IMG/VR virus record: IMGVR_UViG_3300050020_000040
Location: 1 to 56,176 of that record
Direction: 5' to 3' (one strand)
Length of the DNA: 56,176 nucleotides
Source of the DNA: a virus
Part shown: piece after piece, positions 20,484 through 25,849 of the stretch
How the letters are laid out: each line of letters begins with the position of its first letter
Position numbering within the stretch: the stretch's first letter is position 1
Notes under the pieces: generated by a model
What the model was told of the DNA's origin: nothing
What the model saw: the letters and a program-made list of their open reading frames with translations, nothing else
The model's database searches: none
Made by a program: the position numbers and the translations under genes

Positions 20484-20575
20484 GACTGGACGAGAATCCA
20501 GGGCAGTGGGTCGCTGGTCAGGACCCCCGAACGCATCTCGGTCATCTTGGCCACTCGGGCCGCTACGTCACTCAT
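20480..20575 (-). CDS. Tiny protein after the portal gene, unknown function
   Basis: 31 residues (MSDVAARVAKMTEMRSGVLT...). The ATG at 20575 overlaps the portal stop by eight bases and its stop overlaps the next start, so it fits exactly in a coupled chain. No family was recognised. Confidence 0.6.
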   Translation of the reverse strand: MSDVAARVAKMTEMRSGVLTSDPLPWILVQS

Positions 20576-23500
20576 TGTCCTCTCCCTGGTCTGTGTCATC
20601 GGTGGTGTCGTCGGAGGTGCCGCCAGTCAGCGATTCGATGTTCGGGCTCGATGCACACCGGCAGTTGTGTGTTATAATGCCATTGGCGGTGTACCACCCT
20701 GCCGCCGTTTGGAGGTTGTAGACTTGGCCCGTAAATTTGACCCGGACGACCCGGACAAGCTGATCACACGCTACGTCGCCGGAGAGAGCGAGAAGGCGCT
20801 CGCAGAATCCTGCGGCGTCAGCCGCACAGCCATCCGCCGTCTGCTCTTGGCGCGGGGCGTCGCCCCTAGGGGTCGTCGCGAGGGCATGGTGGTCCGCATG
20901 GCCAACACCAGCCCCGAGGAGCGTCAACGGCTCACCGATGCCGCCCACGCCGCCGTCCGAGGCTGCCACTGGAGCGACGAGGTTCGTCGGGCACGCGCTT
21001 TGGGCGTCGAGGCTCATCGCTCCAACACCTCGCCGGTCGAGGTCATCCTGTTCGAGATGCTCCGGGCTCGCGTGGTCGGGGATGCGATGGTCCCCCAACT
21101 GGCGATTGGCCCGTACAACGTGGACCTGGCTGTTGGTCCCATCGCCGTGGAAGTCCTCGGGGGCGGTTGGCATCGGTACAAGCACCACGGGAAGCGCCTG
21201 CGCTACCTGCTCGATCGTGGGTGGAACGTGATCTACATCTGGGTCACGGGACCCCGTCCACTCCAGGCCGGTGCTGCTGAGGACGTACTGGCCTACCTGG
21301 AGCGCACCCACCGCGACCCAACCTTCCGGGGTCGCTATCGGGTGATTCGGGGTGGCGGAGAGTTCGTGGCCGAGGGCGGTCTCGATGACGACGAGATCCC
21401 CGACAAAATCCCGCTCGGTGGACGCCTGCGGCGCAACCTCACCTCGGGGCGGTACTACTCTGACCCAGCCCGGTAGGCAGCGAGGATGCTCCGGCAGGTC
21501 CGGGAACGCGTCTACCGTGTACGGGCCACCGTCGGCGTTCGCCTGGCAGTCGTCACAGGGATCATCCGCCACGAGCCAGTCGAGCATCTCGATCCCGTTC
21601 GCGGCGTAGGTCTGCATACTCGCGGACTGAGCGGCACGAGCGCATTCGGTGTCAGCGATGGTGTAGGCTCGCGAGGCGTCACCGCCCACCGAATCCCGGA
21701 GCCCCATGGCGATAGAATCCATCGAGGCGCCAGAGGCGACCCCCTGGGCGATCTGGGAGCCGATCTGGTCGATGGTGGAGGATGCGATGCCCTTCAGGGT
21801 GAACCCGAGGCCCGAGAGCACCGCGTCTAGGCCAGGGTCGCTGATCGTGGCCGCCGCGCCAGCCCATCCGGGTGTCCATGCTCCCCAGTCGGTGTCAGCC
21901 ATGCTCGGAGGCAGGCTGCCTTGCTGGTTGGCGCTGAGGTTAGTCGGGCCAGCCTTGGTGACCTTCGCTGGAACCGTGGCCGCAGCGATCAGCGCCCCGC
22001 CAACCCAGGCGTCTGTCGCTGCTGTCGTGAGCACCGACTGTAGCTGCGAGAGGTCGAGGTCGGCGGGCGTCAGGTTCCCCTGGGCGAGCCGAGACTGTGA
22101 TGGCAACGCACTGGCAAGCGCCTGGCCAACCAGCGGGGCGTAGTGCCCCACGATCTGGTCAAGCAGGGCGTCGGTGGGGTGCTTGGCCTTCCTGACCGCT
22201 ACTGATCCCGGATAGGCTACTGCCGCAGTAGGGTTAGCCCGCGAGAAAGGGTTTGCGCTCTTGGCGGCCTCCGCGAAGGCGGCGTCCACCTGAGCCCGAG
22301 AGGCACAGCCGACCAGTGCCTTGGTGATGTGCTCTGACACATCGGCGGGGATCACCGTGGAGACGAAGGGCCGAATGGGCTTGCCAGTCTTGACGCGGTT
22401 GCGGGCGAAGTCGCGCCAGCGGCCGAGTTCCTTCTGGATTGCCACCCGGTCGTCCTCGTCGTCCTCATCGTCCAGTAGGTCCATGCCCACTAGGCCAGTC
22501 TCGGACGTGATGCCGGCAGTCTCGCTCTTGGCCACCGCTGCAATCGTGGTGGGTGCGGGAGTGGCCGCCAGCTCGTCCTGCGGGAACTGCGGCTCGTCCG
22601 GGTTGAACGTCGAGACCAGCGCGCCGGGAGTGTTGAGCGTCTTTCCGGGAGCCACGCCGGCGGCAGCCTCGAAGGGCTCCTTACCGGTGTCCACCAGCGG
22701 TGTCGTGTCCAGCGGCCCACCTGTGGCGGGGTTGATCGGGCCGGCGATGGCGAACAGGTTGGCCAGCGGGATCGGCCCCGCCCGAGAGGACATGATGAAC
22801 CGTGGCACGGGCCGGTCAGAATCGACATCCAGCCCGAACATCTCGGAGCGCCATTCGTCCACGGTCACAGCGCCGCCCTCGGTGCCGATCTTCCACACAT
22901 TGGCGTCAGCGACGCGATCCTCTTTCTCGGCCGAGTAGGAGGTCTGCATCTTCACCGGCAGCCCCAGGTCGTCCTGGAGGTAACTGGTGATGAGCCCGTC
23001 GAGATCCTCACACATCGGACGATCAGCGATCCGAGCCTGGACGTCTAGTTGCGTCTCTCCCGTAGCGCGGTTGACGTCCATCGTGACACCGAGGTCCTGC
23101 GGCACCACCCCGAAGGCGGCGCAACCCTTGCGGAATCCCCACAAATAGGCTTCCTCGTCGAACGCCTCGGCACGGATCGGGGTGAACTTCGTCCCCTGTG
23201 GCACGACGTGGGCCTGCACCTTCTTCTGCTGGTCGCCCATGAGCTTGGCGTTCAGCCTAGCCTGGAAGTCGTCCAGCTTGGCGGGGTCGTCCCAGGATTC
23301 CGGCGCCTCCAGCCAACCGGCGGGGAGGTTCGACGTGTTCCAGTATTCCAACAGGTGGAGCGTCATCCGCTCGTCGATGTTGGCGGTGGCGATCACGTCC
23401 TCGATGGGCGCCCAGCCGTAAGGCGAATCCTCCTGCGGGAAGTAGGGCGCATAGATGACGTCCCGGTCAGCCAGCCAGTCCCACGGCACGCCGTTGGCGA

Positions 23501-24125
23501 ACTGGAGGTAGGCCGGGGCGTCACCCACCGGCAGACGGCCGTAGTAGTCGAGCATCGGGGCGATCGTGGTCCCGTCGATGACCTCTAGCGCCATCACACG
23601 TCCGAGCATGTCCCGTCGCTTGTAGAGCGTCAGGGCGTCATAGCGGAGACGTGAGTTCAGCGCCTTGGCAAGCCACCGCTTGTAAGGCAGCCTACCGTCA
23701 GGCTTCTCGATCGCCTTGCGTCCAGTTTGCAGGGCGAGGTCGATGTCGACGTCGCCCTCTTCGCCGTCAGCGGGGACGATCGCCCAGTCGAACGAACGGA
23801 TCGAGTTGATGCGGTGGGCGATGCACATCCTGGCAACGTCCCAGGTCGTCGTGAAGGCCCGGAGCGTGTCGAACGAGATCCTGCCCGACCGAGGGCGGAC
23901 GGTGATGTTGGCGCCGGTCTGGTAGTCGAACTGCCGCGGCTCCGCGCCATAGCCGAAGTACGGGTAGAGCGGATGGCCTGGCGGGAACGGAAGCTGCCAG
24001 CCCATGCCCTGATTCTGTAGGGACTGCTCGATGTTCGGGGGCGCGTTCGTGCCGTTCACGGGCGACGGGATCGGATAGTCCGACGCCTTGTGGACGCGGC
24101 TGATCTCCATGGGGCCGATTCTCAC
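20568..24125 (-). CDS. Portal-MuF fusion protein precursor containing an intein
   Basis: 1185 residues from a GTG at 24125 that overlaps the terminase stop (GTGA) behind AAGGAGG. Residues about 1-480 are a SPP1-type portal (for example WDVARMCIAHRINSIRSFDW and 'DDPAKLDDFQARLNAKLMGD'). A Pro/Ala linker follows, then a MuF/SPP1 gp7-like minor head domain from about residue 700. The MuF signature HPxCRC is split: EHPR is followed by an intein (residues 883-1154), and CRCASSP resumes after it. Splicing would give EHPRCRCASSP and a mature protein of 913 residues. Portal-MuF fusions occur in phages of Gram-positive hosts; the product forms the DNA entry ring and is present in the head. Confidence 0.93.
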   Translation of the reverse strand: MRIGPMEISRVHKASDYPIPSPVNGTNAPPNIEQSLQNQGMGWQLPFPPGHPLYPYFGYGAEPRQFDYQTGANITVRPRSGRISFDTLRAFTTTWDVARMCIAHRINSIRSFDWAIVPADGEEGDVDIDLALQTGRKAIEKPDGRLPYKRWLAKALNSRLRYDALTLYKRRDMLGRVMALEVIDGTTIAPMLDYYGRLPVGDAPAYLQFANGVPWDWLADRDVIYAPYFPQEDSPYGWAPIEDVIATANIDERMTLHLLEYWNTSNLPAGWLEAPESWDDPAKLDDFQARLNAKLMGDQQKKVQAHVVPQGTKFTPIRAEAFDEEAYLWGFRKGCAAFGVVPQDLGVTMDVNRATGETQLDVQARIADRPMCEDLDGLITSYLQDDLGLPVKMQTSYSAEKEDRVADANVWKIGTEGGAVTVDEWRSEMFGLDVDSDRPVPRFIMSSRAGPIPLANLFAIAGPINPATGGPLDTTPLVDTGKEPFEAAAGVAPGKTLNTPGALVSTFNPDEPQFPQDELAATPAPTTIAAVAKSETAGITSETGLVGMDLLDDEDDEDDRVAIQKELGRWRDFARNRVKTGKPIRPFVSTVIPADVSEHITKALVGCASRAQVDAAFAEAAKSANPFSRANPTAAVAYPGSVAVRKAKHPTDALLDQIVGHYAPLVGQALASALPSQSRLAQGNLTPADLDLSQLQSVLTTAATDAWVGGALIAAATVPAKVTKAGPTNLSANQQGSLPPSMADTDWGAWTPGWAGAAATISDPGLDAVLSGLGFTLKGIASSTIDQIGSQIAQGVASGASMDSIAMGLRDSVGGDASRAYTIADTECARAAQSASMQTYAANGIEMLDWLVADDPCDDCQANADGGPYTVDAFPDLPEHPRCLPGWVRVVPPRGEVAPQASTERDFVGDLVVIETALGHELSATPNHPIATPEGWVAVGALQVGQYVLSSTGLEWTGSRDPDVDHVPPTIEQVAQALPVVLVPMPTAPEDFHGDGTNSQVHVVRANRQLGDHRIPDHASPEHLEQDDLDRRGVGAMSLDAQSACPTNLVAPVAASDGGVGGIGEPLTLLGAGVGHADHHALATTPRGDAPRQEQTADGCAADAAGFCERLLALSGDVACDQLVRVVRVKFTGQVYNLQTAAGWYTANGIITHNCRCASSPNIESLTGGTSDDTTDDTDQGEDNE
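20670..20678 (+). promoter_or_regulatory. Extended -10 promoter TGTTATAAT for the antisense endonuclease gene
   Basis: A perfect extended -10 element (TG-T-TATAAT) lies 46 bases upstream of the endonuclease's TTG start and 33 bases upstream of its GGAGG. On the minus strand the same bases encode part of GIITH, the invariant C-terminal intein motif. No good -35 is visible, as expected for extended -10 promoters. Confidence 0.7.
20724..21476 (+). CDS. Homing endonuclease, Vsr-like/EDxHD family, antisense inside the intein
   Basis: 250 residues from TTG 20724, with GGAGG at 20711-20715 (8-base spacing); the same frame is open upstream to 20418 but lacks a ribosome site there. Residues 12-45 form a helix-turn-helix (LAESCGVSRTAIRRLLLARG). 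About 60-100 is a NUMOD-like segment (RLTDAAHAAVRGCHWSDEVR). Residues 104-175 are the Vsr-type nuclease core: PVEVILFEML, 'QLAIGPYNVDLAVGPIAVEV' (D134, E143), GGGWH (H150) and 'LLDRGWNVIYIW'. This resembles the I-Bth0305I (EDxHD) homing endonucleases linked to phage inteins. The gene lies wholly inside the intein DNA on the other strand; its TAG stop is complementary to the intein's Leu2 codon. It would cut intein-less MuF genes and drive intein homing. Confidence 0.9.
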   Translation: MARKFDPDDPDKLITRYVAGESEKALAESCGVSRTAIRRLLLARGVAPRGRREGMVVRMANTSPEERQRLTDAAHAAVRGCHWSDEVRRARALGVEAHRSNTSPVEVILFEMLRARVVGDAMVPQLAIGPYNVDLAVGPIAVEVLGGGWHRYKHHGKRLRYLLDRGWNVIYIWVTGPRPLQAGAAEDVLAYLERTHRDPTFRGRYRVIRGGGEFVAEGGLDDDEIPDKIPLGGRLRRNLTSGRYYSDPAR

Positions 24126-25849
24126 GCTGCCTCCTTGCCACAGAGCATGCACACGCCGTTGCGCCGCCGATAGTGACTACACGCCGCCTCGGGTCCGCTG
24201 GGCACGGCGACGGTTGGCCTCTGGGCTGCCCGGCAGTGGACGCAGAAGCCGTCGTTCCAGAAGTGCCTGCCGTCATCACTCTGCGGGCATCCCTCGCCGG
24301 GAACGTCCGCCCACCCGCCAGCCACGACGGTGGGCGATGCGTCGAGTTCTCGCTGCCAGAGGTTGCCCATCTGAACCCCCAGCATCATCCGCTGGAGTGC
24401 TTGGCTCATGCCGTCCACCTGGTCATCGTGGGCAGCGGTCGGAAACCCGGCGGTCTCTTCCACGAACCCCCCTACGTCGAACAGCGCCACGTCCTTGGTC
24501 GGCAGGAACACGTTGCCCGCCTCGACGAAGGGTGAGACTGCCCGCGCTCGGCTGACCTTGGATTCCTTGGGGTTGACTGGGATGATGCCGCCTATCTCTT
24601 TCTTGAGGCTGTCGATCACCGCCGGCCCGTTGGCCTTGTCCTCGATCAGCTTGGCGGTCGCCTGCGGCCACTTCGCCGTCAGGGTCCGCACCGCCTTGAG
24701 CGTCTCGGTGAAGGTCATACGATCGCGTACCTGATCGACCAGCCACGCCTGAGCGCCTTTGTACGCCCACACTTGGCCTACCACGAAGTCGGTCCCCGTG
24801 GTGTCCTTGAACGTCATGTCCCAGGACTGGAGCAGGTTGCGCCCGTCCTCGATGCGGTAGGCCAAGCCATCGCGCGACCAGAGCGGCTCGCTGTAGCGAA
24901 CCCACCATGCGCGGTTGAACACGTCGCCCGCATCGGGAGAAGGGCGCCCCTGGTAGAGCGCACTCCAAATGCGAGGGGAGGTGGCGGCCTTGGTCGCCTC
25001 CCACTGGGCGTCGGTCCTGCCTCGGGCGCTCCGCAGGTACTCGCCAGGGGTCCGACCGAGCACGTCCGATTGCCCTTGCTCAGGGTGGTGGTCGGCCTGC
25101 GCGGGAATGTTCAACACGATCCAGCGGTCGTAGTGCGGAAGTCCAGCCTTGGCATCCTCGGCCTGTTGCGCCAAGAGCCTCCCGGCTAGGTCGTTCTCAT
25201 GCCATCTCGTCAGGACCACAATCACCGGGGCGTTCGGGGCGAGACGAGGTCGGGCGACCGACTGCCAGGTGTTCCACGCCTGCTCGCTCAGGAGTTCGCT
25301 GTCGGCAGCGCGGTAGTCCTTCACCGGGTCGTCTATCACCAGCAGATCAACGGGGCGACCCGTGATGGCCCCGTAGAGGCCAACGGCCGTCAGGCTACCC
25401 CTATGGGGCGGCGCTAGGGTCCAGCGTCCCGCAGCGCGGCTCTCCTGGCTGACACGTAATCCGAGGTCGATCGTTCCGTCCGTCCCGTCGAAGGTAACCA
25501 CGTCCCCTCGAACCTGAGACGCGAACACCCGAGCGATGTCGTCCCCGTAGGAGATCATCACCACTCGGCTGTTCGGGTTCCGCAGTAGCCACCACTCCAC
25601 CCCATACCGTGAGATCCGGGTGGACTTGCCCTCCTGGGGGGGCATCGAGATGATGAGGCGGTTGCAGCACCCTTCAGCGACGTCCACGAGGGCTGCGTCG
25701 ATCAGGTCGAGCGCCGGCGTCTGCACCGTCTCGGGGTCGAGCGCCTTGGCCAGCTCGCCAGGTGTCGCCCAGCGTCGCGGTGGAAGCGGCGGGACGAAGT
25801 GTCGAGCCGCGACAGTCCAGGGATTCGAGGGATGGTATACTTCAGGCAA
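24122..25849 (-). CDS. terL: Terminase large subunit with C-terminal zinc-ribbon extension
   Basis: 575 residues. ATPase part: Walker A MPPQEGKS (about residues 68-75), Walker B LLVIDDP, coupling motif VVLTRWHENDLAGRL. Nuclease part: SWDMTFKD, LIEDKANG and AAHDDQVDGMSQAL supply the acidic metal-binding residues. After the nuclease, the last about 70 residues carry two Cys/His clusters (CPQSDDGRHFWNDGFCVHC and CSHYRRRNGVCMLCGK), an uncommon addition. The start is TTG at 25849 in the divergent promoter region; no good ribosome site is visible, so the true start could be slightly inside. It packages DNA through the portal encoded next. Confidence 0.95.
   Translation of the reverse strand: MPEVYHPSNPWTVAARHFVPPLPPRRWATPGELAKALDPETVQTPALDLIDAALVDVAEGCCNRLIISMPPQEGKSTRISRYGVEWWLLRNPNSRVVMISYGDDIARVFASQVRGDVVTFDGTDGTIDLGLRVSQESRAAGRWTLAPPHRGSLTAVGLYGAITGRPVDLLVIDDPVKDYRAADSELLSEQAWNTWQSVARPRLAPNAPVIVVLTRWHENDLAGRLLAQQAEDAKAGLPHYDRWIVLNIPAQADHHPEQGQSDVLGRTPGEYLRSARGRTDAQWEATKAATSPRIWSALYQGRPSPDAGDVFNRAWWVRYSEPLWSRDGLAYRIEDGRNLLQSWDMTFKDTTGTDFVVGQVWAYKGAQAWLVDQVRDRMTFTETLKAVRTLTAKWPQATAKLIEDKANGPAVIDSLKKEIGGIIPVNPKESKVSRARAVSPFVEAGNVFLPTKDVALFDVGGFVEETAGFPTAAHDDQVDGMSQALQRMMLGVQMGNLWQRELDASPTVVAGGWADVPGEGCPQSDDGRHFWNDGFCVHCRAAQRPTVAVPSGPEAACSHYRRRNGVCMLCGKEAA
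25833..25841 (+). promoter_or_regulatory. Extended -10 promoter TGGTATACT, leaderless arrangement
   Basis: TGGTATACT followed by TCAGGCA and then the ATG at 25849: only 7 bases separate box and start codon, so the transcript would begin at or near the A of ATG. The block GGTATACTTCAG recurs at 26288-26299 before the next plus-strand gene. Confidence 0.75.

Follow-up and report, generated by a model that had tools for sequence, protein, structure and literature searches.

A phage intein sharing its DNA with a putative homing endonuclease gene on the complementary strand

The window analysed here, the whole 56,176 nt of the 56-kb virus record IMGVR_UViG_3300050020_000040, carries an intein in the minus-strand portal-MuF gene and, on the plus strand of the same 816 bases, a gene for a Vsr/DUF559-like endonuclease. 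We think it very probable that this locus is a homing intein with the gene for its mobility enzyme running antisense to it. According to this model, the minus strand would yield a self-splicing intein within the portal-MuF/minor head gene, the host protein being restored after translation, and the plus strand would yield, from the same DNA, a free protein made of a helix-turn-helix (HTH) and a Vsr/DUF559-like endonuclease. The homing endonuclease gene (HEG) would probably be transcribed from a -10 box formed by the complement of intein block G and translated from a Shine-Dalgarno sequence and start codon on the complement of block F, terminating opposite intein residue 2 or 9. Where phages co-infect a cell, MuF genes without the intein would be cleaved by this enzyme at their conserved HPxC(R)C codons, and repair would copy in the entire 0.8-1 kb element. 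Both the cleavage site and homing are inferred. The architecture can be read from the sequence itself:

20568-24152, minus: portal-MuF fusion ORF, containing the intein in frame (ORF list and Pfam)
21480-24152 and 20568-20663, minus: N-extein and C-extein of the portal-MuF gene
20664-21479, minus: intein of 272 aa, C1 to N272, in the MuF part of portal-MuF
21270-21479, minus: N-terminal splicing domain of the intein (residues 1-70; AlphaFold2 pLDDT mostly >95; intein-frame selection)
21342-21353, minus: block B, T43-P-N-H46, within the N-terminal splicing domain
20664-20789, minus: C-terminal splicing domain of the intein (residues 231-272), with blocks F (VYNL) and G (NGIITHN)
20724-21476, plus: antisense HEG, 250 aa, TTG start and TAG stop, wholly inside the intein
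20670-20678, plus: extended -10-like TGTTATAAT, antisense to block G (from sequence; promoter function inferred)
20711-20715, plus: Shine-Dalgarno GGAGG, antisense to N-L-Q of block F
20751-20852, plus: HTH helices of the HEG (aa 10-43; AlphaFold2 helices 10-18, 23-30 and 34-43; HTH Pfam matches)
21033-21314, plus: putative Vsr/DUF559-like nuclease core (aa 104-197; E106, D134, E143, H150, R158)
21474-21476, plus: HEG stop TAG, opposite intein Leu2 (CTA), directly before the C1 codon

The intein ends are exact, 21479 being the end of the C1 codon and 20664 the start of the last Asn codon. HEG and intein frames are in exact codon register, with HEG residue h opposite intein residue 253-h and plus codon position 1 opposite minus codon position 3.

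Identity and mobility of the endonuclease

Single-sequence searches of the window HEG against Pfam, NCBIfam and PHROGs were all weak, and relatives were needed to decide. The Pfam matches (HTH_58 at 0.0023, MTES_1575 at 0.016) lie below curated cut-offs, the score for DUF559/MTES_1575 being 15.7 bits against a cut-off of 38.2. Among the relatives, MTES_1575 matches 46/57 at E<=0.01 (best 1e-11). The family profile matches PDB 3hrl at 1.6e-6 and 4.8e-5, which on our reading of the alignment appears to be DUF559-like, and PDB 3r3p (“Mobile intron protein”) at 6e-4 and 1.9e-4, which we take to be the EDxHD homing endonuclease I-Bth0305I. The Vsr Pfam profile matches one of 23 members, at 0.002. 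AlphaFold2 predicts three N-terminal HTH helices followed by an alpha-beta-beta-beta-alpha-beta-alpha nuclease core, with a pLDDT of 92.9. Foldseek with the whole HEG model returned no match at E<=0.001; its comparison with Vsr (1vsr) gave a TM of 0.53 normalised by target but a non-significant E of 0.73.

Near-invariant residues of the family are E106, Y131, N132, D134, A141, E143 and R158. The active-site signature is E106-D134-E143-(WH150)-R158, in which D134, E143 and R158 are almost universal, E143 and R158 are DUF559-like, WH150 occurs in the window and many relatives, and no residue is assigned to the last D of EDxHD. Because the His is lost in several subfamilies, “Vsr/DUF559-like” would seem a safer name than strict EDxHD. 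The original prediction had described a 250-residue plus-strand protein wholly inside the intein, with its own ribosome site and start (now placed as GGAGG at 20711-20715 and TTG at 20724), an HTH and a Vsr/EDxHD core. The gene, the HTH and the nuclease family (3hrl, 3r3p, MTES_1575) all stand, but the EDxHD His is not universal; lack of any Vsr/EDxHD match, which would have overturned the proposal, is ruled out by the 3r3p match of the family profile at 1.9e-4. I-Bth0305I resembles the HEG in having a Vsr-like catalytic domain (putative in the HEG) and a separate DNA-binding region and in being phage-borne, whereas it is intron-associated and the HEG family has a His that is not universal and an N-terminal HTH as its DNA-binding part. 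The EDxHD homing endonuclease family has been described (PMC3943268).

Three loci (L015, L124 and L126) have HEGs with an additional tandem HTH of ~50 aa. Intein lengths cluster near 270 or 315-330, apparently set partly by the number of HTH units.

Relatives with and without the insertion are found in Guernseyvirinae, where many phages have an uninterrupted MuF gene (a single piece >330 aa) and others have exactly 816 extra bases, as in the Salmonella phages FSL SP-101 (empty) and nctD30 (816-base insertion). The inteins of E. coli phage Snoke and Salmonella phage nctD30 are 97.7% identical, and the flanking 200 nt are 72.5% and 82.5% identical. Since the inteins are far more alike than their flanks, the element moves horizontally. 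Between nctD30 and the empty allele, identity is 76% over 50 nt on each side and 88% over 600 nt of the farther left flank; the diverged flanks next to the intein are a possible co-conversion tract, the right side not being monotonic. HEG identity correlates only weakly with host N-extein identity (rho 0.29).

These observations bear on whether the element, though real, is relict or exapted, its HEG no longer homing and having another role, for instance in regulating its host gene or a competitor phage. The HTH could belong to a regulator and there is no direct evidence of cleavage, yet the active site is almost invariant in its residues, the element has moved recently between phages of E. coli and Salmonella, and presence is patchy with empty alleles. 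We consider loss of homing highly improbable, and retain a homing intein with an antisense mobility enzyme.

A free-standing, antisense HEG relative occurs in Acinetobacter phage IME285 (L019, MH853786; 455-1348 plus, 1342-2055 minus), immediately downstream of a MuF-like gene that lacks the intein and keeps an unbroken site (PMCKCR). Opposite this HEG there is no long minus frame. A plausible, inferred route of origin is a free-standing nuclease beside its target gene, followed by antisense capture by an intein at the target site.

The intein on the minus strand

The host ORF has Pfam matches to a portal (PF04860, 7e-15) and to MuF (PF04233, 9e-7). The intein lies between LPEHPR and CRCASSP, exactly splitting the conserved HPxCxC motif, and the minus-strand frame is continuous throughout, with host gene and intein in one piece. 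The motifs C1, T43-P-N-H46, penultimate H, N272 and C+1 are present, together with block F (GQVYNLQ) and NGIITHN. Intein_splicing (Pfam) matches the window intein at 8.5e-6 and 44/44 aligned relatives (best 4e-12); T43, H46 and N272 are invariant across the 44 intein sequences, and C1 is invariant in the intein alignment (A4). The PI-MtuI/Mtu RecA intein is matched both by sequence profile (1.7e-10) and by fold comparison with Foldseek (2.4e-4). The predicted complete intein splitting HPxCRC (C1, TxxH, HN, C+1) is thereby borne out as to its motifs; that it splices itself out is an inference, there being no splicing data.

Some family inteins (L059, L066, L117 and L023) start with Ala rather than Cys (HPRGK/A, HPNGR/A, HPN/A), which suggests putative class 2-like splicing subgroups.

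AlphaFold2 models residues 1-70 and 231-272 of the intein confidently (pLDDT mostly >95) and residues 126-220 with pLDDT <50. Given this contrast, the intein centre (about residues 126-220) is, on the model, disordered filler shaped by the nuclease gene that it faces, and antisense-HEG inteins have a long disordered middle because the two functions share DNA antiparallel. Both strands encode folded protein along some 30 codons of the C-domain end and as many as ~100 of the N-domain end. The earlier suggestion that intein and nuclease are physically locked together therefore applies to both dual-coded ends but not to the middle. At these ends, splicing and nuclease functions that share DNA in opposite directions each constrain change in the other, making the element a natural case for asking how complementary strands encode two unrelated folds.

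The disordered middle could also be taken to mean that the minus-strand insert is not a working intein, that the HEG merely lies antisense in MuF and that the minus frame is open only to avoid truncating MuF. A same-strand precedent without splicing exists in the ShiLan insertion (PMC11855218). Against this, C1, TxxH, N272, C+1 and the VYNL block are conserved, the Hint halves are confidently predicted and match the Mtu RecA intein structurally, the N-domain evolves as an intein frame, and the insertion splits HPxCxC exactly. We find a non-splicing insert highly improbable, and continue with an intein that would splice.

Homing inteins are typically single polypeptides with splicing and nuclease domains, the nuclease being readily lost to leave a mini-intein; the present family offers a natural setting in which to ask if the decay of a selfish nuclease is slowed by antiparallel coding. 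Canonical homing inteins such as PI-SceI resemble it in their Hint splicing domain, in interrupting a conserved motif, in having empty alleles and in their linked endonuclease, but their endonuclease is in frame, whereas that of the window is a separate opposite-strand protein with signals of its own and a putative Vsr/DUF559-like fold. Dassa and colleagues reportedly described in 2009 fractured genes that contain split inteins together with genes for Vsr-like endonucleases. These also combine an intein and a Vsr-like free-standing endonuclease at one locus, but there the nuclease gene, as DNA of its own, separates the two halves of a split intein, in contrast to the continuous intein and shared DNA seen here. 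A split intein of this type was rejected because a single continuous frame runs through the intein. The ShiLan element is likewise inserted into a phage gene and conceals an endonuclease in a different frame; that enzyme is an out-of-frame HNH endonuclease on the same strand, without splicing (PMC11855218). A hidden HNH insertion of this type was rejected as well, as the window HEG is Vsr/DUF559-like and on the opposite strand, and a Hint domain, lacking in ShiLan, is present.

Distribution of the family and conservation of both frames

A tblastn search with the plus-strand protein gave ~126 phage records at E<=1e-5. Among the matches listed, most lie under genes annotated MuF, minor capsid or head morphogenesis, and the phages include those of Gordonia, Salmonella, Escherichia, Klebsiella, Pantoea, Vibrio, Pseudomonas, Edwardsiella and Haemophilus, among others. 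In individually examined representatives the HEG is opposite in strand to the MuF/head gene, and in all of them but IME285, with its free-standing HEG, the two frames keep one codon register. The HEG profile search found 161 viral contigs and 16 bacterial contigs, the latter from Micromonospora, Gordonia, Microbacterium, Glycomyces, Chloroflexi, Firmicutes, Acidobacteria and others. Identifiable host genes encode MuF-type minor head proteins (Phage_Mu_F in 23/43, Phage_min_cap2 in 7 and VG15 in 2).

In a set comprising 80 of the 161 viral contigs and all 16 bacterial ones, 96/96 have zero stops in both frames across the match, in the same codon register and at GC 0.42-0.71; the two other antisense phases carry 2-24 stops. 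When intein members without a HEG were sought, the four candidates of the intein search, missed or only partly matched by the endonuclease-based search, all proved to carry divergent antisense HEGs, and no HEG-less mini-intein was found. The original prediction of an intein with its HEG on the opposite strand of the same 816 bases is thus confirmed, with exact coordinates, and it would have been undermined by loss of the HEG frame where the intein remains, which was not seen in any intein match checked. The layout is found again in well over a hundred phages and prophages and is thus a real kind of mobile element that has gone largely unrecognised.

In the GC-rich window long antisense ORFs are frequent, and an open plus frame in a single case is therefore weak evidence. 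Across non-redundant relatives, plus frames are open in 62/63, against 7.9 expected when the inteins are synonymously recoded with local codon usage. Substitutions in close pairs fall mainly on HEG third positions over the HTH, the linker and the two nuclease parts (126, 165, 149 and 123, against 57, 72, 81 and 81 at first positions), whereas opposite the intein N-domain it is the intein third position that changes most (137 vs 85). Second codon positions, which count for both proteins, are least changed at both ends. In random distant pairs, mean BLOSUM62 over HEG residues 1-192 is 1.08, 1.21, 2.20 and 1.44, against 0.09, -0.01, 0.67 and 0.36 under the recoding null. Conservation of the intein N-domain is likewise higher (2.16) than that imposed by the other strand (0.42), and the HEG opposite it keeps a smaller excess (0.86 vs 0.41). 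Judged by these patterns, the middle of the element evolves as an endonuclease and its N-terminal end as an intein.

Although the 1-3/2-2/3-1 register favours open frames and some motifs are shadows of the other strand (HEG YRVIRG opposite intein TPNHP; intein DFHGD opposite the AVEV strand of the nuclease), the idea that the plus-strand ORF is a by-product of GC-rich minus-strand coding, its similarity mirroring intein conservation, is refuted by the excess of open frames, which persists at GC 0.42-0.55, by HEG conservation far above the recoding null and its third-position substitutions, by independent homology to 3hrl, 3r3p and MTES_1575 and the confident HEG model, by the free-standing IME285 relative without a minus frame, and by codon bias at the HEG start, Shine-Dalgarno and stop.

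The literature searched contained no description of an antisense intein endonuclease; this search did not cover a 2025 preprint on actinobacteriophage inteins. That preprint, by Gosselin, Arsenault and Gogarten (10.1101/2025.01.02.630785), is said to concern inteins with “non-canonical architecture”. PMC11855218 cites it for overlapping reading frames in actinobacteriophages, and the Gordonia members, or part of the finding, may already be covered in the preprint. A 2019 paper (PMC6776784) reported the Snoke intein, in a Guernseyvirinae capsid morphogenesis protein, and noted that K1ind2 lacks it; the Guernseyvirinae/Snoke inteins are members of the window intein family, and the intein passages of that paper do not mention the antisense gene. 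Annotation pipelines overlook antisense genes even in well-studied groups such as Guernseyvirinae and Gordonia phages.

Two Salmonella phage records, LC507823 (L122) and PV360690 (L123), carry annotated hypothetical or nameless ORFs that overlap the intein, antisense ones among them. In most of the remaining records nothing is annotated there.

Gene signals within the splicing blocks

Beyond what was originally predicted, intein blocks also encode signals of the antisense gene: block G often a -10 box, block F the Shine-Dalgarno and start, and Leu2 or Ser9 the stop. The HEG start codon is exactly opposite the residue preceding VYNL in 56/64 non-redundant loci. In most cases it is a His, so that its CAT/CAC codon appears as ATG/GTG on the opposite strand; in the window it is Gln (CAA), giving the weak start TTG. 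The codons for N-L-(Q/E) form the Shine-Dalgarno GGAGG when read antisense, and a Shine-Dalgarno of at least 4 bases is found in 48/64 loci (18.9 under synonymous recoding), the Leu codon being CTC in 58/72 compared with 28% in exteins.

A full -35/-10 promoter scan of the window found none, and only the -10 box was tested, across relatives and against synonymous recoding. Upstream of the HEG, an exact TATAAT is present in 23/64 (1.9 expected, with a maximum of 6 in 1000 recodings), a 5/6 match in 45/64 (12.6 expected) and TGnTATAAT in 10/64 (0.5 expected). That the element carries its own antisense promoter is inferred from this enrichment, antisense transcription not having been shown.

The HEG stop is inside the intein in 72/74 loci, mostly facing Leu2 or Ser9. 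Intein ends set by regular expression failed or were doubtful for about a quarter of loci, and for this reason we ran the stop-codon test again after removing redundant loci, with a definition that does not depend on the stop. Leu2 was then CTA/TTA in 18/22, compared with 8.4% among the leucines of the exteins, and Ser9 was TCA in 10/19, compared with 9.6% among their serines, codon choices that serve the signals. The enrichment statistics carry no correction for remaining shared ancestry; the loci are divergent, often at 35-50% HEG identity.

We lean towards the broader view that the splicing blocks carry a complete antisense transcription unit (-10, Shine-Dalgarno, start and stop), and that the resulting mobile element, fully self-contained and coded on two strands, has spread among phages of several bacterial phyla by way of their minor head genes and is undescribed as a class.

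In eight loci (L040, L052, L077, L092, L094, L100, L110 and L115), TATAAT lies nearer the HEG start, facing another part of the intein (near LYI/HYT), as though the -10 box had been displaced.
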